From positions 248,001 through 312,000 of the forward strand of contig JAFEAQ010000019.1 of NCBI GenBank assembly GCA_018266295.1: 64,000 bases of DNA, given 5' to 3'. Positions 4,254-32,413 of this stretch are shown one piece after another. The notes beneath the pieces are model-generated. The model ran no database searches. It worked only from the letters and a program-made list of their open reading frames with translations, and was not told the origin of the DNA. How positions within the stretch are numbered: position 1 is the stretch's first letter; each line of letters begins with the position of its first letter. Both the position numbers and the translations under genes were made by a program. This stretch comes from Bdellovibrionales bacterium. Its GTDB lineage: Bacteria; Bdellovibrionota; Bdellovibrionia; Bdellovibrionales; Bdellovibrionaceae.

Positions 4254-5336
4254 ATGAAAATCTTTGCAGACCTCGCCACGGATGTTGAAGCCCAATGGAG
4301 CAAAGCCGCTCACAGCTTGGCAGCTTTTCCCGAAATAGCCACCACAGCGCTGAAGGATTTCAAATACCGTCTCTCGAAAGATGAGTTTGATAAGGCTCTG
4401 TCTGAGTGGTTATTGCAGACCAAGCCTCTGCCTGAGCAGATCAATGTGCATAATACTTTCGGCCAACCTCCGGTGACGGTTTTCAATAATGGCCGCTTCG
4501 TTGTTGATATTTATATTTGGCTCAACTTCGACACCTCCATTCATAGCCATGGATTCCGCGGAGCCTTCAAAGTTCTGCACGGAAAATCGCTGCAAGAGGA
4601 TTTTAAACCAAAGACTTTAAAAACATACGCACCGGATACAGAGCAGACGGAACTGGGCACACCAGAAATGAGTTTACTGTTCCCGGGGGATGTGCGCACC
4701 ATTGCGCCGGGAAAAGATCTCACGCATCGAGTGATTCACTTGGAAAATCCCACGGTCACACTCTGTGTAAAGACGATTAATGAGCCGTCTTTGCGTCAAT
4801 GGAATTACTTTCCAAACGGCCTGGCGATTCAGAAGCGATCGATTTCCGGCGGACTCGTTAAGTCGCTTTATTACTTTCAGTATTTGATGGGACAAAATCC
4901 TACGACAGGGATGAAGTTCCTGAGTCAGCTCCTGGATCAAACGGATCTTTCGCTGCAGATGAATCTTTGCGAGGAGATTTCCGGCGGCGCCTACAGCTTG
5001 AATGAGGGGATGGCCGAGTTTATTTTAGATCAGGTGTATCAACGCCATTCAGAGACGGAATGGTTTAAAAACTATGAACAGCTGATGGAGCTTGCCGAGG
5101 CGGAACTTCATTTTGAGCACACCGACGTGGCGTCGGAGCGATTGCTGGCTCATTTTGTGAATTGTAAGTACTCGGCAGAGACGGCATTGCCGTTGCTGGC
5201 GGCTCTGGCCTCGGCGCCTTTTAGCGAAGACGATATGGAAGATCTGCTGGGGCGCTTGGTGGAAGATCCGCGTCTTTTTGGCAGCGGTGAAGGCCCGAAT
5301 GAAGCTCAGGCCCTTAAGATTCGGGAATTTAAATAA
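4254..5336 (+). CDS. Cupin-like protein of unknown function
   Basis: A 360-residue cytoplasmic protein starting on the base after the Hpt stop codon, so it is probably co-transcribed with the kinase and Hpt genes. A segment around residues 95-170 contains HSHGFRGAFKVLHG and later THRVIHLEN. These spaced histidines resemble the metal site of small-molecule cupin dioxygenases such as the cysteine dioxygenase group. The C-terminal half is acidic and helical, with no motif I recognise. There is no signal peptide. Its place in the phosphorelay operon suggests an output or sensing role, but that is only inference. Confidence 0.6.
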   Translation: MKIFADLATDVEAQWSKAAHSLAAFPEIATTALKDFKYRLSKDEFDKALSEWLLQTKPLPEQINVHNTFGQPPVTVFNNGRFVVDIYIWLNFDTSIHSHGFRGAFKVLHGKSLQEDFKPKTLKTYAPDTEQTELGTPEMSLLFPGDVRTIAPGKDLTHRVIHLENPTVTLCVKTINEPSLRQWNYFPNGLAIQKRSISGGLVKSLYYFQYLMGQNPTTGMKFLSQLLDQTDLSLQMNLCEEISGGAYSLNEGMAEFILDQVYQRHSETEWFKNYEQLMELAEAELHFEHTDVASERLLAHFVNCKYSAETALPLLAALASAPFSEDDMEDLLGRLVEDPRLFGSGEGPNEAQALKIREFK

Positions 5337-5954
5337 TCATTTCTTCTTTTTCTTGGTCATTTCGTATTTCCAATTGCGCGATTTGCCTTCGCTGATCCAA
5401 TCGATGGAAGTCTCGATGCGCGCTTCGCGAGTTGGGTCTGTTTTCGCGCTCAAGATCCAATAGATATAGTCTTTGCGTTTAGAAGGCGTAAAAGCATTGA
5501 AATTTTTAAGCGCCGTTGGATTTGCCCGTAAGGAATCCATTAAATCATTTGGCGGCTTTACGACGGTGGTGCGTTTCTCGCGCGGCGGGAGCTTCGTCGT
5601 CGGCTCATTGAAATGCATCGCAAGCTTTAAGTATTCGGCAAATTCTTTATCGGGCAAAAGATCTTCGACCATCGTCATCTTGCGCATGTGTTTCATGTGC
5701 GCTTTGGCCTTAGCCCCTTTTTTCTTTACGATCAGCGGAGTTTTCCAGAACACCACGGCGCAGTGCTTTTTAAAAGCCATCGTCGCGCAAAGAATGCGTC
5801 CTTGATAAAGATAAAACGGAGAGTTCCATTTCATCTCTTCAACGACTTGAGGACAGGTTTTATGAATCACCTTGCGCAGGTGCTTTAAGATCGGCTTTGC
5901 GAAGTCCGGTGATTTTTTAATGTATGCATCGATTTGGGGATTCTTTTTTGCCAT
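5337..5954 (-). CDS. DUF1801/YdeI-like protein
   Basis: A 205-residue protein with a basic Lys-rich C-terminus. The N-terminal half resembles DUF1801 (KWNSPFYLYQGRILCATMAFKKHCAVVFW), a compact fold often found in YdeI-like proteins. The C-terminal half matches the YdeI/OmpD-associated helical region (PNDLMDSLRANPTALKNF, then FTPSKRKDYIYWI). Members of this group are usually called bacteriocin-protection or hypothetical proteins; the biochemistry is not established. It is convergent with the cupin-like gene, whose stop is immediately adjacent, and probably monocistronic. Confidence 0.8.
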   Translation of the reverse strand: MAKKNPQIDAYIKKSPDFAKPILKHLRKVIHKTCPQVVEEMKWNSPFYLYQGRILCATMAFKKHCAVVFWKTPLIVKKKGAKAKAHMKHMRKMTMVEDLLPDKEFAEYLKLAMHFNEPTTKLPPREKRTTVVKPPNDLMDSLRANPTALKNFNAFTPSKRKDYIYWILSAKTDPTREARIETSIDWISEGKSRNWKYEMTKKKKK

Positions 5955-5972
5955 GGATTTATTGTCGCCGGA

Positions 5973-7154
5973 CTATGCTTGGATCGCAAGAATATGCGTG
6001 TCCAATGCTGCGGCATCCATTTTCTTCCAATTCGTGGCACTGCCAATTTGGACAGGCGAACTTTTATTGTTTGTGTCACCATAGCCAAGTTCTCCGGAGG
6101 AGTTAATGCCCCAGCCCCACAGAGTGCCGGTGGTTTTTATTGCAAAGGTGTTGCCTTCGCTGCCAGCGACCTCTTTCCAATCCGTCGCTGTTCCCACCTG
6201 AACAGGCGAGCTGCGGTTGATCACGTTGCCAGTGCCGAGCTGGCCGCTGCCGTTGGCACCCCAAGCCCACAGTGTCCCATTCGACATGATGCCCAGAGTG
6301 TGACTGACGCCAGCGGAAACTTTCAGCCACGTTCCTGCGCCGACTTGCACGGGCGAGCTGCGATGTGCGATATCGCCCAGTCCTAACGAACCACGGCCAT
6401 TTTCTCCCCACGCCCACAGCGTGCCATCGGTCTTGATTCCGAAAGCACGAGCTCCGCAGCTGGAAATCTGGGCCCAGTCGGTGAGGGCTCCGACTTGAAC
6501 CGGAGAACTGCGCGCTGCCGTTGTGCCAGAACCAAGTTGACCTGTGTCGTTCAAACCCCAGGACCAGAGAGTGCCGTTGGTTTTTATCGCGAAGCAATTA
6601 TGATAAGCGCTGCGAATTGTGGCCCAGTCCGTGTCTGTTCCAAGTTGAGTGGGAGTGCTTTTCGCCGTTGAGTTGCCAAACCCCAGGGCTCCATCGGTAC
6701 CACCGCCCCACGACCACAGCGAGCCATCGGTTTTTAGGGCGAGGCAATTGTAAGCCCCGAGCGAGATCGCGCTCCAGTCGGTGGCAGTTCCCACTTGCAC
6801 TGGAGAACTTCGATAGGTCGCAGCGCCGGAGGTGCCGGCGCCCAATTGACCGACGTCGTTGGCGCCCCAGCTCCACAGAGTGCCGGGCTCTTTAATGGCC
6901 AGAGTAGTTGTTGTTCCGGTCGAAATATCGCGCCAGTTGCCGTCAGTGCCGATTTGTTTTGGCGCAGCCACATCGGTGGTCGTCCCATCCCCCAGCACGC
7001 CGGTCGCATTAGCGGCCCAGCCCCAAAGCGTCACAGGTGGAGTGTATTTTTTGAAGAATGCAAAGGGGATGAGTTGTGCGAAAATTTTCTCCGGGAAGAG
7101 AAACAATAAAAACGTCTGTAAAAATCTAGCCAAAAATTCGCGCCGATTCGCCAT
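5973..7154 (-). CDS. Exported RCC1-repeat beta-propeller protein
   Basis: A 393-residue protein with an N-terminal export signal. NRREFLARF resembles a twin-arginine motif and is followed by a hydrophobic stretch and a probable cleavage near AQ/L. The rest consists of seven RCC1-type units of about 52 residues, each with a core such as LWSWGANDVGQLG followed by SSPVQVG, predicting a seven-bladed propeller. The repeats are also visible in the DNA as diverged tandem units. Bacterial RCC1 proteins are usually surface or secreted binding scaffolds; no partner is suggested by the neighbours. It is convergent to nothing and divergent from the lipoprotein at 7471. Confidence 0.88.
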   Translation of the reverse strand: MANRREFLARFLQTFLLFLFPEKIFAQLIPFAFFKKYTPPVTLWGWAANATGVLGDGTTTDVAAPKQIGTDGNWRDISTGTTTTLAIKEPGTLWSWGANDVGQLGAGTSGAATYRSSPVQVGTATDWSAISLGAYNCLALKTDGSLWSWGGGTDGALGFGNSTAKSTPTQLGTDTDWATIRSAYHNCFAIKTNGTLWSWGLNDTGQLGSGTTAARSSPVQVGALTDWAQISSCGARAFGIKTDGTLWAWGENGRGSLGLGDIAHRSSPVQVGAGTWLKVSAGVSHTLGIMSNGTLWAWGANGSGQLGTGNVINRSSPVQVGTATDWKEVAGSEGNTFAIKTTGTLWGWGINSSGELGYGDTNNKSSPVQIGSATNWKKMDAAALDTHILAIQA

Positions 7155-19289: not shown

Positions 19290-19580
19290 ATGAAATTCTA
19301 TCTAACATACTTCCTTCTATTTTTTCTCGGATTTAATCTTAAAGCTCTTACATTAGGTGCAGAGAGTGCGCGGATGAGAGCTACGATGAAGGGCCTACCC
19401 CGGCCACCCCATGCTTTCTGGGAAACTCTTCCTGCGAGACTTGCCCCTTTCTTAATTATCATTGTGATGATAGTCATGTTGATTGTTGACTGGCGAAAAG
19501 GCAGATCTTCTTTAAAGAAAGTATTTTTCTTAACATTTTTCCTGGCTTTTCTATTCTTATTTTCTCTTGTAGTCGTTTAG
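19290..19580 (+). CDS. Small membrane protein
   Basis: A 96-residue protein with an N-terminal signal-like helix (about 3-19), a short basic loop (RMRATMKGLPRPP), then two hydrophobic segments (about 52-67 and 78-96) separated by a basic DWRKGRSSLKK turn. No family is recognised. It is probably co-transcribed with the gene at 18381, 45 nt upstream. It ends at a bidirectional terminator shared with the convergent glycine-rich protein. Confidence 0.6.
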   Translation: MKFYLTYFLLFFLGFNLKALTLGAESARMRATMKGLPRPPHAFWETLPARLAPFLIIIVMIVMLIVDWRKGRSSLKKVFFLTFFLAFLFLFSLVVV

Positions 19581-22793: not shown

Positions 22794-23606
22794 ATGGAAT
22801 ATAGGCATAAAATAAATAGTTTGTCCCAATACCTAGAGATAATTTCAAAAGCTGGTAAATTCGCGACCAAATCGCCACTGTGGTTTCGCGGCCAAAGATC
22901 AGATAAACTCGGTTTGGTACCTGGAATCTATCGAAGGTCCAATAAGCATCTTAAACGCGATGAAAAGTCTCCAATTATCGAATTTTTTCAGCTGTCAAAT
23001 AACTTCCTTGAGCGAGAGAACTTGGATGGCTGGGATTGGCTAGCATTAATGCAGCACTATGGCTTGCCAACGAGGCTCTTGGATTGGACTGAAAGCAGCT
23101 TAGTTGCGCTCTACTTCGCCCTAAAGGACGGTGAGAGTCCGCAAGATTTTCCTACGATATGGATTATTGATCCGTATGCTTTAAACCTTAAATCAATTGA
23201 CGATGACAATATCCAGCTTGCTTGGGGTTCTAGATTATTTCCTTGGCTTCCTGAAAGTCTAAGAATTGAAGGAGCTGTTAAGCATCTGATAGAGAAAAAG
23301 CCTTCGTTCAATGAAGCTGGGAAGTATCCAATTGCTACATATGTTAGGTATACAAATCCAAGAATAATTGCTCAAAGTGGTGCGTTTACACTACATGGTC
23401 ATTATGAAGATTGCCTTGAAAAGTACTTTGAATCCAAATCTATTAAATATAGAAAAATAGTTCTAGAGCCGGTCAGAAGTAGTTCGCTGAAATGGCTGAG
23501 AGCTAAATTGCTTTTCGAATTAGAAAATGTTGGTGTTCATCAACTGTCATTGTTTCCAGAGCTATCATCTGTTGCTTCTTTTATTATAAATAGACGTACT
23601 CCTTAA
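22794..23606 (+). CDS. FRG domain protein
   Basis: A 270-residue protein with an FRG domain over the N-terminal half: LWFRGQRSDKLGLVPGIYR (about 29-47) and LMQHYGLPTRLLDW (about 85-98), then ALYFAL. FRG proteins occur widely in phage-defence neighbourhoods, but their activity is not settled. No signal peptide or TM helix is visible. It overlaps nothing and is followed after 10 nt by a DUF4365 gene with its own AGAGG site, so the two form one operon. It lies in AT-rich DNA between repeat R3 and the MerR-polymerase gene. Confidence 0.88.
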   Translation: MEYRHKINSLSQYLEIISKAGKFATKSPLWFRGQRSDKLGLVPGIYRRSNKHLKRDEKSPIIEFFQLSNNFLERENLDGWDWLALMQHYGLPTRLLDWTESSLVALYFALKDGESPQDFPTIWIIDPYALNLKSIDDDNIQLAWGSRLFPWLPESLRIEGAVKHLIEKKPSFNEAGKYPIATYVRYTNPRIIAQSGAFTLHGHYEDCLEKYFESKSIKYRKIVLEPVRSSSLKWLRAKLLFELENVGVHQLSLFPELSSVASFIINRRTP

Positions 23607-23616
23607 GAGGTTTGAA

Positions 23617-24618
23617 ATGTATTATCCGAAGAAATCACATATTGGAGCAAAAGGCGAAGCGCATTTAAAATCGACAATTTTCAATGATATTGGTTGGATT
23701 TATCGTCCCCAGCCTGAATCTGACATTGGAATTGATGGCGAAATTGAAATACTAGATGAAAAAAATCATAGTAAAGCGGTATTAGCTAAGGTGCAGGTAA
23801 AGACTTCGGAGGAAATTAAAAACTTAGATAATATAAAGGTGCCAGTAGACGAACCTCATTTGGTGTATTGGAGTCGATTCAGAATTCCTGTTCTTTTGGT
23901 TGCCGTTGACCTTAAAACAAAAACTTCATATTGGACTTTGATTGATTCTACAATTTCTGTCCCACCTGGCCAAGAGACATTCTCGGTTCATATACCTAAA
24001 GAAAATATTATCAATGTTCATAGAAAAGAATTTCTATCTGAGACACTGGCAATTCCGAGAGGAGTTTTCGATGGCCTTATTGAGTTAGTTGAGTTTGAGG
24101 CCGAAAATTTATTAGATGTCTCATGTTACGCGGATGATAAAGAATTTGATGACGCAAATTCAAAAGTTTGGAAGATGGTTCAAAATATTTTCCAATTGGC
24201 TGAAAATTTTGAGGGAGTCCTGTCGTTTCAGCATCGAAAGAGAATTTTGATGGGGGCTAAGAAGGTTTTTGAAAATCATATGAAAGACTTGAGTGAGCGC
24301 CTGAATAACCTATCGCATGACACTGTCGTAGGAAATGTGCGAGTAAATACGACCATGAAATTAAATTATGGTGGCAATAATTTTGATGGTGTTGACTATT
24401 ATGATTTTAATGACCCATCCATTTTGAACTCTGAGGATTGGATTATTGAAGTGACTGGCAGCGTTTGTATGGGACACAACAATAGCGGTAAGGCGATTTG
24501 GAGAGATATAGCTGATTTTACCGAAAGGGGTTGGTGGTCAAGTAAAGACCCGCTAGATGCTATTGGTAAGGCCAAGAATGAACTAGTAGAAGTTATTAAT
24601 GATTTTCCGAGAGAGTAA
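23617..24618 (+). CDS. DUF4365 (PD-(D/E)xK nuclease-like) protein
   Basis: A 333-residue protein. The N-terminal ~150 residues match DUF4365: IGAKGEAHLKS, GWIYRPQPESDIGIDGEIEI and VLAKVQVKTS. The D...E...QxK arrangement is the active-site pattern of restriction-endonuclease-like folds. The C-terminal half (about 170-333) is helical then beta-rich, without a recognised motif. It is the second gene of a pair with the FRG protein (10-nt gap). A DNA- or RNA-cleaving effector is the natural inference. The pair ends at the GGGCTCCTC hairpin (24630). Confidence 0.85.
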   Translation: MYYPKKSHIGAKGEAHLKSTIFNDIGWIYRPQPESDIGIDGEIEILDEKNHSKAVLAKVQVKTSEEIKNLDNIKVPVDEPHLVYWSRFRIPVLLVAVDLKTKTSYWTLIDSTISVPPGQETFSVHIPKENIINVHRKEFLSETLAIPRGVFDGLIELVEFEAENLLDVSCYADDKEFDDANSKVWKMVQNIFQLAENFEGVLSFQHRKRILMGAKKVFENHMKDLSERLNNLSHDTVVGNVRVNTTMKLNYGGNNFDGVDYYDFNDPSILNSEDWIIEVTGSVCMGHNNSGKAIWRDIADFTERGWWSSKDPLDAIGKAKNELVEVINDFPRE

Positions 24619-24658: not shown

Positions 24659-26212
24659 TTAGAAATACAAAGCCAACGGTCTAAAATCTTTATCGATAAA
24701 TCCGAGATCCGACCAAGCGGAGTGGTGATTGTCTTCCCAGTCCTTTAAAGCCGCGCGGTATTCCTTCGGATAAAGCGAATTCATCACAGCACTGCGCTTG
24801 ATAAACCACCACATGCAGACCATATGGCTCTTCAGGAACACGGATTTAGCTTCAGTGTCTAGTAATTCTCGAATTTCTGCAGGAACATGTTTTTCATATT
24901 CTTCCGCTCGTGGGAATTCTTTCAATCGGCCATTTTTAAAAGAGTAGAACTGATTGCATTCTGAAACTGACCAGTCCAAGTAGACTTGTAAGATACGGAT
25001 AAAGTCTTCGCGGTACATCAGAAGACCCTTTGTCTTCGCCAAGATCTTTTGAATCTGCACAGGCAGCTTCTTAGCGCTTGGAACGAGCTTTTCGTGGTTT
25101 ACATACTCTTCCAACATCGCGATCTTATTCCCGATGGGATAGGCAAGTGTGCAGAGGTTTAAAATGTCTTCTGCATCTTTGACCTTGTATGTTTCTAGCT
25201 GCTTCCAGATCGCGCGTTTTACTTCGTTCTCTTTTTGCCAGAATTCCAATGCAGAGTTTGCATGCATGATGGATTTTTCCGGAGCATCAAATAAGAAGAT
25301 CTGTTCCACTTGGCCTTTGACGAAGCTTGAAAGGACGCGCGTGTCGTGATCAGGGATTGCATCGTAGTTAATAGGCCCCACTTGTTTTTCAACTTGGGCC
25401 ATCACGCTCAGGAAGGGGCATTGGAAAATAAAGATCTTTGCTTCACGCAGTTCTTCGAGCGTTGTTCTCTTTAGCAGGTGGTTTAAAAACTCAGGGCCCT
25501 CATCGTAGGCCACATCGACCCAGATGAGTGGCTTCACGGCATGGAAAAAGAGTTCCGGCAGCAGATCAAACTGCTGGGAGTAATTGTGATTAAAACCTTT
25601 TGAATAAAGCAGCAAGCTACCGGCTGCGGGACCGCGGCCTGGGCCGATCGTGGTGCCCATTTCGTCGGCGACGTCTTTGATGATATCGAGCAGCTCCATC
25701 ATTTTTGTGAAGTGGGTGCTTTCGGCGGCCTTGAGTTCGTGGCGCAGGTTGCGTTCAAGGTCTCCCGAGACGGCGACGCCGCGGGCTTTTATCTTTTGCT
25801 TTGCTTGGGTGACAAGCTCTTCCATGATGATCCTCCTTTGTGGCTCACTGAGTTTGTGAGCAGTGTTTAAGGAGGCAATGAGGGCTTCGAGCTTTTGAAT
25901 CCGCGCCGCCGCCTGCACGTGATCGGCTTTGAGCGCTTTCAATTTCTTCTTCAAGGAATTCTGAAGATTCTCTGTGGTGAGAGTGGGGTCCTGCGCCAAC
26001 AGCTCAGCGATTTCGCCGAGGGTGAATCCAAAGTCTTTGAAGTTTTTAATTCTCTCGGCTTGGGTCACTTCGGACTTCGAGTAAAAGCGGTAATCATTAT
26101 CGCCTCTAGAATGCGATTTGAGTAAGCCCTTAGCTTCATAAAAGCGAATAGCCCGCGCGGTGAGCCCGGTCTTCTTAGCCAGTTGTCCGATAGTAATCCA
26201 GTCCTTCATCAT
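24659..26212 (-). CDS. MerR-family regulator fused to a DNA polymerase III alpha-like core
   Basis: A 517-residue protein. The second ATG (26209) is better spaced from GGAGG than the first. Residues 5-75 are a MerR helix-turn-helix (ITIGQLAKKTGLTARAIRFYEAKGL) and about 80-125 a dimerisation coiled coil. Residues about 155-490 match the C-family polymerase alpha subunit (DnaE): GPGRGPAAGSL (190-200), FDLL (215-218), a palm strand WVDVAYDE (231-238), VLSSFVKGQVEQIFLFD (293-309), LAYPIG (357-361), LLMYREDFIRILQ (397-409) and KSHMVCMWW (461-469). Compared with DnaE, D233 and D309 match two catalytic aspartates, but the third is Ala235, and the PHP, OB and clamp-binding regions are absent. It is probably a DNA-binding regulator with a repurposed polymerase core sensing nucleotide or DNA. 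Related 3' ends form repeats R1-R3. Confidence 0.85.
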   Translation of the reverse strand: MMKDWITIGQLAKKTGLTARAIRFYEAKGLLKSHSRGDNDYRFYSKSEVTQAERIKNFKDFGFTLGEIAELLAQDPTLTTENLQNSLKKKLKALKADHVQAAARIQKLEALIASLNTAHKLSEPQRRIIMEELVTQAKQKIKARGVAVSGDLERNLRHELKAAESTHFTKMMELLDIIKDVADEMGTTIGPGRGPAAGSLLLYSKGFNHNYSQQFDLLPELFFHAVKPLIWVDVAYDEGPEFLNHLLKRTTLEELREAKIFIFQCPFLSVMAQVEKQVGPINYDAIPDHDTRVLSSFVKGQVEQIFLFDAPEKSIMHANSALEFWQKENEVKRAIWKQLETYKVKDAEDILNLCTLAYPIGNKIAMLEEYVNHEKLVPSAKKLPVQIQKILAKTKGLLMYREDFIRILQVYLDWSVSECNQFYSFKNGRLKEFPRAEEYEKHVPAEIRELLDTEAKSVFLKSHMVCMWWFIKRSAVMNSLYPKEYRAALKDWEDNHHSAWSDLGFIDKDFRPLALYF

Positions 26213-26331: not shown

Positions 26332-27483
26332 CTAATCTGATATTGCGTATACACTATTGGACAATTCTCCCAATGTTAGGAGGGCCATGCGATCTTCAAT
26401 GTTGTTTAGAAACGATTTAATTAATACTGAAAACTCGCTGGACGATTCTATTTCTAAAATCCACTTATCAGGAAAATACCGAGCTAAGTTTCCAATTATG
26501 TACAAGCTTACATATATAGTACCAAATTCATTTAGGCAAAATGGCGGAAGAAATCCGACTTCACTTACCGACTTTTGAAAACATTCTGGGACCGACAATT
26601 GTGGAGAGACTCCTTTGCCACCATTGATAGTTACCACGAAGCCCCCCGCAGGAGATTCGCTTATATCTACTTGCTTCCATGCCCAAGGTTCGATTTTGAA
26701 ATGATCAAACACTTCCCACAATAGTGCTGTAGTTGTTGGATGCGTGATAAACTTTAAGCGCGAATTGAAGTTATCATTTGGGAGAACGCTAGTTTCCTGG
26801 ATTACAACTCCACGTACAACCTTTCCACTAATGTTGTACGTTGATAATTCTCTTTGCAGCCATGGTAAATGGGTAAAGCATTCTAGTAAAGTTAGGCCTT
26901 GTAATGGGAAGTCAGAAATATTGGAGCCGGTTAGGAGCACTTCAGTACTCTTATTGGAGACATTAGTATCATGATATTGTGTAGTATGCAGACCTATCAG
27001 AGAAGCGTATTGAGCAGTGCGTCTCCAAAGTTCAAAGGTACCCATTCTAGCACCGTCTTTAATCATGGGTTTTGCTCTAATACTTGAAAACTTCTCTTCG
27101 ACTGTTAGCTGTTTTTGTATATTTTCGGAAAATAGTAGTCCGTGATGTCTGTGACTTTCTCGCGCGACATCTAGGCTACTGGTGCCATCCTGTTTCACCA
27201 ATATCTCAGCGAGTGCTAGGCACATGCATGAGTAGTAGAGCAATAATGGCTTGGTAGCCAAGCTGACTGTTTTTGATGCATCTCTATATTCTTTGGCTTG
27301 TTGAATGCAATACCGGATTTGTTCAGCTTGCTTTTGAACGTTTCCTTTTTGATTCTTGGGGACTGAGTGCCATTTCATTAGAAGGTTTGTAACATATGGT
27401 ACACTTCGATAAGTTTCGAGCCAATCCCAAGCATTATGACTCTCGCGATCTGAAATTATTCTACCTGTTTTATATGATTGCAT
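26332..27483 (-). CDS. YaaC-like protein
   Basis: A 383-residue soluble protein that looks like the YaaC family: an early W-x-x-L segment, a helix with QQAKEYRDA, then KPLLLYYSCMCLALAEI (about 80-97) and a nearby HHGLLF, ending in a conserved region on residency in small communities (IYVSLYIIGNLARYFP, FLNNIEDRMA). YaaC proteins are uncharacterised and often found beside other genes in defence-like contexts. The ATG follows directly on the stop of the upstream coiled-coil membrane gene (TAGATG), so the two are translationally coupled. Confidence 0.72.
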   Translation of the reverse strand: MQSYKTGRIISDRESHNAWDWLETYRSVPYVTNLLMKWHSVPKNQKGNVQKQAEQIRYCIQQAKEYRDASKTVSLATKPLLLYYSCMCLALAEILVKQDGTSSLDVARESHRHHGLLFSENIQKQLTVEEKFSSIRAKPMIKDGARMGTFELWRRTAQYASLIGLHTTQYHDTNVSNKSTEVLLTGSNISDFPLQGLTLLECFTHLPWLQRELSTYNISGKVVRGVVIQETSVLPNDNFNSRLKFITHPTTTALLWEVFDHFKIEPWAWKQVDISESPAGGFVVTINGGKGVSPQLSVPECFQKSVSEVGFLPPFCLNEFGTIYVSLYIIGNLARYFPDKWILEIESSSEFSVLIKSFLNNIEDRMALLTLGELSNSVYAISD

Positions 27484-28902
27484 CTAGTTGATGGTCTCTT
27501 CGGCTGATTGCGAGGATTTTTTGCTTATTGTTGTTACACTACTAATTATATCTTTAATACCAAATTTTTCTGGCAATACTGGGGCGACTTTGTCTAAGGT
27601 GTTTGCATCTATCTCTAGGTCATAAGATAGCGATTCAAAGGACATATTCATAAAATGGTTCTTTAAAACTACAAATGAGAGAAAAGAAGCGTAATTTCTT
27701 TTCTCAGAGTCAGGCTCGCCTTTGAGCACCGTTTCAGCGGTATTTCTGGCAAGAATTAATTTTGCCTCAATATTCCTGGTGTCGGTTACTAAGTTTAGCG
27801 TATTTTTGACAGTATTTTTTATAAGTTCGAACAGCCAGTAAAATGCGGTTAAAAATATAGCCCCTGCCCCAAGTCGTAGCGCTGTGATTGTATACAGTTG
27901 ATGAGGTTCTGTAGTATTTTGTATTTGCTCAAGTGCATGCTCATAATACGTCATAGCACCTTGACATAGTACTTTTGCGAGGCCAATTAGGAGAAGTGAA
28001 AGTGCTAAATTAATTGCAAAATTTTTCCGAGTTTCACTTTTAAATCCTTCAAGTGTCGAGTTATAGAAATTTTTTTTATTTAAGATGTTGTCTAGGTCAA
28101 TTTGAGCTCTATATTTCTCGTCTTGTTTTGTTGCAATTTCTGACTTTAAATTATTAATATTATTGTCTAGTGCCTGATATTCTCCTCTTAAGCTATTTAA
28201 GTTTGTATTAAGAGATTCATTTTTCTTCATCAGCTCTTCAAGATTAGATTCTAATTCTTGTTTTTTGCTCGATAAATCTTCATTAATTTTATGCAGGCGC
28301 CCCTCTTCGGTCTTTAATCCGGAAATATTATTTTCCAGATTCACGCCTGAATTTGTGAGCACTAGTGCTTGGGACAAGTTCTTTCTGAATGCTTGTATAG
28401 AAGTCGACAGGTTTTGAAAATAGTTTGAAAGTTTATCTTGAAAGTCAGAAGGGTCAAAGTTTAGGTCGCCATGTATTTCAATCTCGCTAATGATCTCAGC
28501 TAAAGGTTTAGTCGTGTTGATTTCGATTGCGACAACTACCCCATTAACGACTATCTCTTTTTGTTCCTTAAACGGATTTATAGTTTTAAATTCTGAATTT
28601 CTTTTGCTTGGATCGCAGCCGTAATAAATTATTTGTACTCGGCGGGTTCCGAGAGCGCCTTTGTTATGGAGGTTAATGGTGTGAATATATGCCGGCCTCT
28701 TGAATTCTAGTCGTAAACTTTTCTTCTGTGTAACTAGTTGCAAGGGGCCGTCTAAGATTTTACTTTCTTGATTTGCAGATGATTGTTCGTTTAGTGAATT
28801 ACTTTTGATTCTTTCAAATGCATAAAATGGAAGGTCTGATTCTACTGTCGGTATTTGAGTCTCAATTTTTTTGAATTCAGCCTCTAAGTTTTGAAAACTC
28901 AT
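27484..28902 (-). CDS. Coiled-coil membrane protein, partner of the YaaC-like gene
   Basis: A 472-residue protein with AAGGAA before its ATG. Order: an N-terminal beta-rich domain (about 40-150), perhaps a carbohydrate- or ligand-binding sandwich; a long coiled coil (about 185-285, heptad-like runs of Leu/Asn/Lys/Glu); two TM helices (about 298-320 and 346-366); and a helical cytoplasmic tail with LDKVAPVLPEKFG. No family is recognised. This layout (sensor, long coiled coil, membrane segment) and tight coupling to a YaaC-like gene suggest a two-component unit, possibly defensive. The DNA is AT-rich, which suggests transfer. Confidence 0.7.
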   Translation of the reverse strand: MSFQNLEAEFKKIETQIPTVESDLPFYAFERIKSNSLNEQSSANQESKILDGPLQLVTQKKSLRLEFKRPAYIHTINLHNKGALGTRRVQIIYYGCDPSKRNSEFKTINPFKEQKEIVVNGVVVAIEINTTKPLAEIISEIEIHGDLNFDPSDFQDKLSNYFQNLSTSIQAFRKNLSQALVLTNSGVNLENNISGLKTEEGRLHKINEDLSSKKQELESNLEELMKKNESLNTNLNSLRGEYQALDNNINNLKSEIATKQDEKYRAQIDLDNILNKKNFYNSTLEGFKSETRKNFAINLALSLLLIGLAKVLCQGAMTYYEHALEQIQNTTEPHQLYTITALRLGAGAIFLTAFYWLFELIKNTVKNTLNLVTDTRNIEAKLILARNTAETVLKGEPDSEKRNYASFLSFVVLKNHFMNMSFESLSYDLEIDANTLDKVAPVLPEKFGIKDIISSVTTISKKSSQSAEETIN

Positions 28903-29199: not shown

Positions 29200-30021
29200 T
29201 TAGAATCTTTCAAGTTTATTTGAAAGATCATCATTACTAATTTCCTCTATGGTAGGGCCAAATGCCTTTGCCATTTTATTAGAGACGGCAAGATAATCGG
29301 CAACCCAACGAAATTTCTCATACGCAATAGGATTTTTTTGTGACGCTTCATTTAGGTTGTGTGCAATTACTTCCAGCTTTGTATAATTCTCATGACTAAA
29401 ATATTGTGAAAGGTAGTCTACGAATAGCGGGTAGTCTTTTTGAAATGATCCGAACTTGCTTAGATTCTGTCTCCAATGAAAAAGCACTCTATGATTCCAA
29501 GATCCCGTAGGTTGATTAATTTTTTGAATTAAACTATGCGCACTATCAAAGTTTAGGTAAGAAATTATATTTTGATCTAAAATAATTCGTGGAAATTTTG
29601 CGTGTTTGGTTTCCAAATCATATGCTCGAATAAAACCTGGACCAAATATAGTACGACTTTCTTCATTAAAAGTCATTTCGCCGACACTAACGCCACCTCG
29701 TAGCCAAACATTATATAAAGCAAGTTCTGCTTGTAAAAGGGAAAGTGCAATAAGAAATTCTTTCGTTTTAATTTGATTCCCTTGCGAGCGCTTTGATGAG
29801 TCCATTTTCATAAAAGCAACGATACTATCGCTGAAACTAATAAACTGAATATCTTTTTTAATATAGATTTCTCTTAAGCGTGCTGTTACAGTTTTTGAAA
29901 TTTTAAAATACTGATTTATTTTTTCATCCTGATTTTCCTGTATCATCTCGCGAAAGCCTAAGACGTCTAGAAAAGCAATTATATAGGTAGAATATTTGTA
30001 ACGAGAATTTGGTAAACTCAC
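29200..30021 (-). CDS. Class III nucleotide cyclase, Pycsar-like
   Basis: A 273-residue protein. I chose GTG at 30021, with GGAG 6 nt upstream, over the longer frame to 30039. The cyclase fold shows IIAFLDVLGF with metal-ligand Asp19, FISFSDSIVAF with the second Asp65, WLRGGVSVGE with Arg108, and the following IFGPGFIRAYDLE and KFPRIIL typical of the PycC group of pyrimidine cyclases in anti-phage Pycsar systems. It has no membrane or receptor domain. The 60-nt-upstream gene on the same strand is a DUF2971 protein, in the position of the effector. The base specificity (cUMP, cCMP, cAMP or cGMP) cannot be read. Confidence 0.8.
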   Translation of the reverse strand: MSLPNSRYKYSTYIIAFLDVLGFREMIQENQDEKINQYFKISKTVTARLREIYIKKDIQFISFSDSIVAFMKMDSSKRSQGNQIKTKEFLIALSLLQAELALYNVWLRGGVSVGEMTFNEESRTIFGPGFIRAYDLETKHAKFPRIILDQNIISYLNFDSAHSLIQKINQPTGSWNHRVLFHWRQNLSKFGSFQKDYPLFVDYLSQYFSHENYTKLEVIAHNLNEASQKNPIAYEKFRWVADYLAVSNKMAKAFGPTIEEISNDDLSNKLERF

Positions 30022-30098
30022 TAAAGTCTCCAATAGCATTTGCTATTCAAAAAGTAAGGCTTTGCTGAAGTATAGTCCTCGGACAGGATGATTTTTTT

Positions 30099-30974
30099 TC
30101 AAGCTTTAGGTAAACATTTAGATTTTACTATTAACACATTGGGACAGTTTCTCTCTATAAGTCTCCTTATTATTTTCTCATTCTTTTTTGATATCCTTGA
30201 TCCTAGAGAAATTTTGATTAGTAGATTTGATAGATCTACAGGAACTTTAATAGATTTTCCTCTTTGTTTTTTAGTATTAACCCTTCTCCGAAACTTACTA
30301 ATATTAATATGATTCCCGTCAAAACTCACGGAATCGGTAACAAACAGGCGTTCAGATGTCTTTTGAAGTTCTTCGGCATTATACAAAATAAAACGATATT
30401 CTTGCTCATGTTCAAAGTCGGTATCGGGATCGCTGTCGCCATCTAAAAAGAAGAAAGGGAGGTGATAGTCGTCGACTTCATTGGCGCCATCAATATATGT
30501 GTGCGCATTTTCTCGGTCATATGTAACGGCGTTAGATCTGACATCAAATGGGGAATTTTCTTCGCAGAAATTGAAAAGTTCTTCATTTACCTTTTGGATG
30601 GTCGAATAAATTGCAACACCAGAGAAATCATTTGCAAAGTATTCCCACAGCTTAGCATCTTCTTTATCTTTATGTGTCCAACATGAAATAAATGAAACTT
30701 CTCTTGCCGCAAGAAGATTTGAAATTGTAGATGTAAAGAATAAGTCAGTACTATCGTCGTCCTTAAATGATTTTCGGAACCAATTTCTTACGACGTTTAC
30801 ATAAGATCGGGAGAATCTTGCTTCATTCAAATCAGAATCTTCGTATTTTACTGCTGTGGGAAGATAAAGTTTTTTGTATCGAAGCAGATATATAACCTTA
30901 TCTGCTGGCATATACCTTAATATGGTTTTATTGTTGGTGATTCCCAACATCTCTTCTCTATCTTCATACCACAT
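30099..30974 (-). CDS. DUF2971-family protein, candidate effector of the cyclase
   Basis: A 291-residue soluble protein. It carries DUF2971 features: an early LRYMPADKVIYLLRYKKLYLP, then FISCWTHKDKEDAKLWEYFANDFSGVAIYST (SCW...MWE-YA-like core) and EHEQEYRFILY. The family is common in defence-associated loci and its biochemistry is unsettled. It is the first gene of a pair with the downstream cyclase (77 nt to the chosen cyclase start). GAGG precedes the ATG; a second in-frame ATG eight codons later is also possible. Confidence 0.78.
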   Translation of the reverse strand: MWYEDREEMLGITNNKTILRYMPADKVIYLLRYKKLYLPTAVKYEDSDLNEARFSRSYVNVVRNWFRKSFKDDDSTDLFFTSTISNLLAAREVSFISCWTHKDKEDAKLWEYFANDFSGVAIYSTIQKVNEELFNFCEENSPFDVRSNAVTYDRENAHTYIDGANEVDDYHLPFFFLDGDSDPDTDFEHEQEYRFILYNAEELQKTSERLFVTDSVSFDGNHINISKFRRRVNTKKQRGKSIKVPVDLSNLLIKISLGSRISKKNEKIIRRLIERNCPNVLIVKSKCLPKA

Positions 30975-31264: not shown

Positions 31265-32413
31265 CTAAAAATAAAACCCCACGCCCACAGTACCAACATC
31301 TTCCTTCTTCTTGTTCACGCTCGTCTCCTGGTGGCCGTGCTTGTAAGTCAAAGTCACCTTGTAGTTCACGCGATCCGCTCCAAGGTTCGATTTCCAGTAC
31401 AGAGCTCCGTAAGGCTCCAGCGCTGATTTGTACTCAACACCGTCCTTCGTGGCATTGCCCAGGTACTCGCCAATCACAGACAGACCCACGATGTTTCTTG
31501 CTCCTGAGTAAATGTCCCAAGAGATATTGAGCTCCACCCCCGGAAAGGCAATCGCTTCCAGCCTGTATTCGCCCAAAGTCGCTTCCGGCAGCAAGAAGCT
31601 CTGTTCCGTGTACAACGCCATTAAATCCACATGCAGGCTCGGAGTCGCCTCGTAAGCCACGCCCACCCCAAATGATTTCAATGTTTCAGACTTGTGACCT
31701 ACGTTCGTACCCGCACCGTCTTCGATTTCGCCAAACCGCGTGCTTGTCAGGCCCGCTTGAAAAAGTAAATGCCAGCGCTCGTTGATGATCTTACCGTATT
31801 GCAAATCAAAACCCACGCTGCTGTTGGATTTCATCGTCGCTTCCGTGTGATTTGCTTCATCTTCAGACGTTAGCTTCACGCTTTGATAGCGCGGCTGAAC
31901 GAAAATGAAATTATGGTGAGCAGCCTCTGCAGAATGCGCTTCTTTTGCATGCTCTTCTTTCTTTTCTGGAGCTTCTTTAGCCGCGGCTTCAGGTTTTACT
32001 TCCGCTGAAGGTGATGGTGCAGGCAGGGGAGCCGCCGGCGCTGCCGGTGCCGCTACGTGCGGTTCAGGCTTCGCTGCGATCACTGCCGCTGCGGCAGCAA
32101 CAGGTTTCAACGAACCGACCTTTTCGTTTGCCGGTGCCGTTTCCTTCACCGCCGCCTCCTTCATCGAAGGAGCATCGCCAGGTAACAGAATCGTCTGACC
32201 CGGCACGAGAGCATTTGGATTTTTCAGCTTTGGATTTAATTTAACTAAATTCTTCGCATACTCATAACGACGGGGATCTTTTTTATCCGTACTCCCCAAA
32301 GACCGATCCGCGATTTTCAACAGCGTATCGCCTTCGCGAACTGTGTACTCAGTCTGCGACCAAGCTAAGCAGGGAGTGATTAAAAAAGCAGCGGTTACAA
32401 GCTTCATAAACAT
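31265..32413 (-). CDS. LysM and outer-membrane beta-barrel protein
   Basis: About 382 residues. AAGAGG lies 6 nt before the ATG at 32413, so the longer frame is not used. After a signal peptide (cleavage at AWS/Q) comes a LysM domain (YTVREGDTLLKIADRSLGS...LVKLNPKLKNPNALVPGQTILLPG), then an Ala/Pro/Glu-rich linker (about 80-150). The C-terminal half is a beta-barrel-like region with alternating strands and a terminal aromatic (VGVGFYF), typical of outer-membrane proteins. The LysM module should bind peptidoglycan while the barrel sits in the outer membrane, tying the layers together. It is not in an obvious operon. Confidence 0.82.
   Translation of the reverse strand: MFMKLVTAAFLITPCLAWSQTEYTVREGDTLLKIADRSLGSTDKKDPRRYEYAKNLVKLNPKLKNPNALVPGQTILLPGDAPSMKEAAVKETAPANEKVGSLKPVAAAAAVIAAKPEPHVAAPAAPAAPLPAPSPSAEVKPEAAAKEAPEKKEEHAKEAHSAEAAHHNFIFVQPRYQSVKLTSEDEANHTEATMKSNSSVGFDLQYGKIINERWHLLFQAGLTSTRFGEIEDGAGTNVGHKSETLKSFGVGVAYEATPSLHVDLMALYTEQSFLLPEATLGEYRLEAIAFPGVELNISWDIYSGARNIVGLSVIGEYLGNATKDGVEYKSALEPYGALYWKSNLGADRVNYKVTLTYKHGHQETSVNKKKEDVGTVGVGFYF

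Follow-up and report, generated by a model that had tools for sequence, protein, structure and literature searches.

The window, by which we mean the whole 64-kb stretch of DNA analyzed here, belongs to a genome of 4.22 Mb and contains two abutting genes that we refer to as A and B (Table 1). At their junction, which reads ...AAC TAG ATG CAA..., the stop codon of A directly adjoins the ATG of B with no intergenic bases, and both open reading frames lie on the same strand, in agreement with the TAGATG coupling proposed in the original prediction. The two genes are poor in GC (35.6% for A and 40.2% for B) compared with the window as a whole (46.9%), and the genes at 31265 and 32502, which flank the A/B region, have GC contents of 50.9% and 48.5%. 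Promoter matches occurred at chance level, and terminator-like sites were above chance (12 versus a mean of 3.9), none of them being assigned to the A/B operon. No direct repeats of at least 16 bases were detected between positions 19500 and 33000. The flanking genes have relatives in other genomes, yet none of the four stretches compared contained a match to another gene of the window, and no empty site could therefore be defined.

Table 1. Positions of genes A and B, of features within their products and of neighboring genes in the window.
Feature	Position	Strand	Description	Evidence
Gene A	27484-28902	-	472 aa; membrane protein with discoidin-like head, coiled coil and two TM helices	Intact ORF, fold model, family searches
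A, residues 21-148	28459-28842	-	Predicted discoidin (F5/8 type C, CBM32-like) beta-sandwich head	Foldseek, VIA-align
A, residues 151-290	28033-28452	-	Long helix, coiled coil	DSSP on model, heptad test
A, residues 295-313	27964-28020	-	Hydrophobic helix 1	Kyte-Doolittle 2.21
A, residues 336-354	27841-27897	-	Hydrophobic helix 2	Kyte-Doolittle 1.49, weaker than helix 1
Gene B	26332-27483	-	383 aa; YaaC family (PF14175)	Intact ORF, Pfam profile
B, residues 26-118	27130-27408	-	N-terminal YaaC stretch, YY...LA.A and HGL	Profile and alignment
B, C-terminal YaaC stretch	26371-26550	-	L.RY.P..W motif	Profile and alignment
Gene upstream of A	29200-30039	-	Same strand as A, 297 bases from A	
Second gene upstream of A	30099-30974	-	Same strand as A	PADLOC PDC-S31, E 5e-10
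FRG gene, then DUF4365 gene after 10 bases	22794-24618	+	Separate defense-like pair	Pfam and PADLOC
MerR-type gene	24659-26212	-	47.7% GC; between FRG/DUF4365 and A/B pair	

The neighborhood of the pair is defense-like, as had been proposed, with PADLOC matches to PDC-S15, an Aga-type REase and PDC-S31. The FRG gene matches PF08867 (E 4.3e-26) and PDC-S15 (9e-50), the DUF4365 gene is recognized in Pfam (7.7e-22), and the FRG/DUF4365 pair also matches Aga_REase (1e-20). The earlier description of one AT-rich island holding all of these genes was borne out in part: A and B are low in GC and the FRG and DUF4365 neighbors are real, but the MerR-type gene, whose GC content is higher, separates them from A and B. 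Of the cyclase/DUF2971 pair, the DUF2971 gene corresponds to the PDC-S31 match, but its DUF2971 score lies under the Pfam cut-off (E 0.087), and for the ‘cyclase’ gene nothing in Pfam scored above cut-off. The MerR-type gene is itself unusual. It joins a DNA-binding head of the MerR type to a DNA polymerase III alpha-like stretch (PF17657 E 2.5e-8, PF07733 E 1.4e-6) and has full-length relatives in two other genomes (G016 and G024, 31–33% identity); the profile matches make it an unusual combination of a regulator and parts derived from a polymerase.

Protein A has the overall composition that had been read from its sequence. The beta domain is represented by the predicted fold of the head, the long coiled coil by a shuffle test and the two TM helices by two hydrophobic stretches, after which the structure model ends in a short helical tail. 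The model of the whole protein is weak to modest (mean pLDDT 60.8, pTM 0.31), and the head fold was modeled, at modest confidence, for the window A as the one representative of its family. The best Foldseek match of the head is 4lpl (E 1.7e-5), which falls among discoidin/CBM32 folds. Despite the modest model, the VIA-align Z score of 10.8 (110 aligned residues, rmsd 3.5 Å) and the uniformity of the top rows, most of which are discoidin/CBM32-type domains, make a discoidin-type jelly-roll beta-sandwich a credible fold for the head. Compared with discoidin, F5/8 type C and CBM32 domains, the head differs in its fusion with a coiled coil and TM hairpin, in its probable cytosolic location and in its sequence, for which no discoidin family appeared at E values up to 1 among the matches listed (25 of 34, Pfam). 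The coiled coil is real: its heptad enrichment of 0.76 exceeds the shuffle maximum of 0.57 and was reached by none of 200 shuffles.

The membrane topology of A was approached through charge. In six of the eight members of the A family described below, the loop joining the two helices carries a lower net charge than both 15-residue flanks, and in the other two its charge equals that of the N-side flank; in one member (G131) the hydropathy scan detected a single helix and the second was placed by eye. Because of the low loop charge relative to the flanks, a location of both ends of A in the cytosol is favored, and the head, coil and C-terminus may accordingly be cytosolic, although the evidence is weak. 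The same charges oppose the reading of A as an outward-facing membrane sensor, which we consider disfavored and did not retain.

Apart from generic coiled-coil scores, searches of Pfam, PADLOC, PHROGs and NCBIfam gave no named family for A. PADLOC-DB system models gave only weak matches inside the coiled-coil region (best E 1.5e-4), and matches of A to the PDB by sequence fall within the profile's coiled-coil section. Relatives were found by iterative searches of 368 genomes from the window’s phylum (Bdellovibrionota-like), which was the scope of the whole-genome profile search. The single sequence identified two clear relatives, in G189 (37% identity over 252 residues) and G064 (21%); a three-row profile added G131 (E 2.6e-9) and G037 (3.8e-7); and a five-row profile, which its five training members match by construction, added G335 as the sole new member (2.7e-35). 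The G037 protein led to a gene of the Sinorhizobium phage phi2LM21 (E 1e-4) and this in turn to a gene of a Vibrio filamentous phage (E 3e-14). The resulting family has eight members, six in the phylum (six of 368 genomes), one in a Sinorhizobium prophage and one in a filamentous Vibrio phage, and no relatives of A were found in the plasmid or viral-contig collections searched. Weak matches in many genomes were discarded, as they covered the coiled-coil part only or belonged to ORFs of other lengths; these made up six of nine rows in the single-sequence search, four of nine with the three-row profile and all rows below G335 with the five-row profile.

Since coiled coils match one another, segments of A without the coil were tested separately against 815 decoy ORFs and 250 shuffles, with the window, G189 and G064 sequences as the core. 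With the core profile of the TM and C-terminal segment, the five other members rank second to sixth (E 2.7e-4 to 0.029), ahead of the next best sequence, a shuffle at 0.047; the top rank is held by a decoy that is itself a fragment of the window's own gene A. The reciprocal TM and C-terminal profile places the core members first (4.6e-6, 0.0045 and 0.18), with the best decoy at 0.35. With the head segment, the core profile sets G131 clearly apart (3e-8), and the other members are interspersed with decoys and shuffles or adjacent to them, at ranks 2, 3, 6 and 28, the last being phi2LM21; the reciprocal head profile again puts the three core members at the top (1.7e-5, 0.0019 and 0.02; best decoy 0.37). 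The profiles in both directions thus indicate that homology extends outside the coiled coil, a conclusion that is sound for the family as a whole and is thinnest for the phi2LM21 head.

The existing annotation of the phi2LM21 member, p57 (L084 3464-4843), calls it an ATP-dependent DNA ligase, but a Pfam search at E 0.01 gave no match to a ligase, and the paper describing the phage names p65 as the ligase (PMC5537653). The ligase label of p57 is probably a misannotation, the protein being instead a coiled-coil membrane protein of the A family.

Most members of the family sit on mobile elements or beside restriction-modification genes. In G037, a terminase gene precedes A, which is followed without a gap by a DUF4145 gene (E 4.9e-11) and then by a gene for a 315-aa protein without a Pfam match. 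A stop/ATG junction with no gap therefore occurs in two members, with YaaC downstream in the window and DUF4145 in G037. In G131, genes for a resolvase, a C5 methylase and an MvaI/BcnI enzyme are followed by A and, after 88 bases, by a 149-aa gene (L058 6463-6912) with sub-threshold PARP (E 0.0058) and DUF3990 scores, which possibly encodes an ADP-ribosyltransferase-like effector. The G189 copy lies near a D12 methylase gene, a DUF7687 gene and a recombinase gene and has no close partner. In G064, two integrase genes (one below the Pfam cut-off) and a relaxase gene are present, a gene upstream of A scores below threshold for PIN (E 0.052), and no neighbor follows on the same strand; G335, on a contig of 5090 bases, has a radical-SAM gene on the opposite strand and no close partner for A. 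In phi2LM21, the genes on either side of A encode a holin and an SOS-associated peptidase, and in the Vibrio phage a DUF2726 gene (E 1.6e-17) lies 208 bases upstream of it. Five of the eight loci, including both phage copies, have no close downstream gene on the same strand.

The assignment of B to the YaaC family withstood a profile search, in which B reached 71.5 bits (E 1.1e-19) against PF14175, above the curated cut-off of 27 bits. B covers the profile in two stretches, positions 4-94 and 239-304 of 307, with the middle unaligned. Of the 68 residues that seven other aligned YaaC proteins share without exception, B retains 31, and Y83, Y84, L89, A90, A92, H114, G115, L116, L333, R335, Y336, P338 and W341 are kept in all eight. 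Within the phylum, the family scored above cut-off in a single genome of 368, and in a protein search in one of 99 relatives, in both cases the window’s own; a first scan of genome contigs with B as query returned no match. No PADLOC-DB family matched B. No solved structure of a YaaC relative was found (best E 0.7), and an AlphaFold model built from four sequences had a pLDDT of 37, too low to be of use. The YY...A...H pattern prompted the idea that YaaC might be a HEPN protein, HEPN domains having a helical fold with an Rx4-6H motif. An hhalign comparison of the YaaC alignment with PF05168 members gave a probability of 0.2%, in a test in which the DUF4145 and Abi_2 positive controls also failed. 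In one open-access literature library, we found neither an assigned function for YaaC nor, among the papers listed, a report linking it to phage defense.

Elsewhere, too, YaaC was found on mobile DNA. A plasmid YaaC (P0001) used as query matched 15 plasmid records, 12 of them covering at least 80% in one place, and more copies were found on viral contigs. Most of these are solitary genes whose products, of 501-510 aa, carry an additional N-terminal domain that B lacks, and on two Methylobacteriaceae plasmids a shorter YaaC directly follows an Abi_2 gene. The extra domain, of about 100 residues, also forms the C-terminal part of an unrelated protein of 480 aa from a viral contig (L027 3870-5312, also L028 and L029); as judged from these sequences, it is a mobile domain with an unassigned role. 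On another viral contig (L026), a DUF6680 gene with a hydrophobic stretch (4341-4907) lies 66 bases upstream of YaaC (4974-6506), and its product is perhaps another membrane protein adjoining YaaC.

The original observation itself is confirmed, and its interpretation is supported in part. Conserved pairing of A with YaaC had been set beforehand as a test of the original prediction, and the result went against it. When profiles were run in both directions over 1820 ORFs from 19 loci, several of which extend only a few kilobases on one side, A and YaaC occurred together in the window and at no other locus. The pairing was thus seen in one of eight A loci and one of nine YaaC loci, a small sample, in addition to the single YaaC-bearing genome of the phylum, and B is the only one of the nine YaaC proteins coupled to an A-family gene. 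As YaaC adjoins A only here and other partners lie beside its relatives, A may be the reusable membrane part of a defense system.

According to PMC3710099, which also covers membrane-linked HEPN proteins, DUF4145 is a HEPN family with recorded defense links and DUF2726 a nuclease with a REase fold. From this, and from the recurrence of a membrane-anchored scaffold with a head of a ligand-binding type beside exchangeable genes, two of which abut it, we favor an explanation in which A is a modular, cytosol-facing membrane sensor or scaffold that acts with B as an adjoining effector, probably against phages and with interchangeable partners. We hold this explanation tentatively, at somewhat less than even probability, and the same estimate covers the acquisition of A and B as a two-gene operon by horizontal transfer. 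The protein would be held at the inner membrane by the two-helix hairpin, with the discoidin-like head carried on the coil towards the cytosol, and would oligomerize through the coil to serve as sensor and scaffold. The head would bind an infection-related ligand and in response hold or release the product of the adjoining gene, which would execute the response, so that the infected cell is arrested or killed. YaaC would be the effector in the window, and its place could be taken by the RNase-type HEPN protein DUF4145 in G037 and perhaps by the ADP-ribosyltransferase-like protein in G131 and the DUF2726 nuclease in the Vibrio phage.

In favor of this explanation are the independent junction without a gap in G037, with a different downstream family, the homology of the A family outside the coil, its mobile-element, phage and restriction-modification settings, and the presence of YaaC elsewhere on plasmids, twice after Abi_2, and on viral contigs. 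On the other side, YaaC lies beside A in only one of the eight A loci, the call of the G131 neighbor lies below the Pfam cut-off and behind an 88-base gap, the core head profile separates only G131 from the decoys, and the head fold comes from one modest model. The five loci without a close downstream gene further suggest that A may act alone and that B may be a passenger. This forms the main rival explanation: A would be a stand-alone membrane protein of phages and islands, serving in superinfection exclusion or as an abortive membrane effector, and YaaC, DUF4145 and the others would be independent cargo. The mostly single-gene occurrence of YaaC elsewhere fits such an account, but gapless junctions with two different downstream genes are more operon-like than expected of random cargo, and we rate a solitary role for A as slightly less probable than the favored explanation.

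The remaining explanations dispense with phage defense. In a housekeeping or stress-response pair, for instance one for envelope-stress signaling, the position in an island would be incidental; in its favor, bacilli carry YaaC on their chromosomes as well, and no function is known to have been demonstrated anywhere. However, the low GC content, the defense-like neighbors, the occurrence of A in six of 368 phylum genomes and in two phages, and the single phylum genome with YaaC above cut-off all speak against such a role, which we judge quite unlikely. Least probable of all, and improbable in its own right, is a toxin-antitoxin-like pair for island maintenance, for example with a toxic YaaC sequestered at the membrane by A, since the proteins are large for a classic pair and both A and YaaC exist as solo copies, even though two abutting genes in DNA of foreign composition and a G037 partner from a family of RNase-type HEPN domains would suit it.

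Returning to the sensor or scaffold explanation, the A family is a more interesting object than its pairing with YaaC. It extends from the window’s phylum to a prophage of an alphaproteobacterium and a filamentous phage of Vibrio, with different neighbors, as one would expect if a sensor could work with exchangeable effectors. A bolder version, which we consider unlikely, would have the family serve as membrane platform for anti-phage systems of a class not yet described, sensing infection at the membrane and firing whatever effector is encoded next to it, with solo phage copies engaged in phage-phage competition. YaaC would then be an immune effector, and a long-unexplained family would gain a testable role. 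Its link to a mobile membrane module already makes a role in phage conflict directly testable. No report of an anti-phage protein combining discoidin, coiled-coil and transmembrane parts was found in the same open-access library.

Besides the YaaC family and the discoidin-type domains, two known arrangements come close to those described here. The membrane-associated HEPN proteins (PMC3710099) resemble the G037 locus in uniting a membrane part with a DUF4145-type HEPN domain, which in G037 are placed on two adjoining genes; they differ in that A is another membrane protein encoded by a separate gene and that its partner in the window is YaaC, which is not shown to be HEPN. The two Methylobacteriaceae plasmids have no A-family membrane coiled-coil protein, but there too YaaC lies directly downstream of a defense-type gene, the Abi_2 gene matching PADLOC PD-T4-5 (7e-11) and AbiD (9e-8) in the one case tested.
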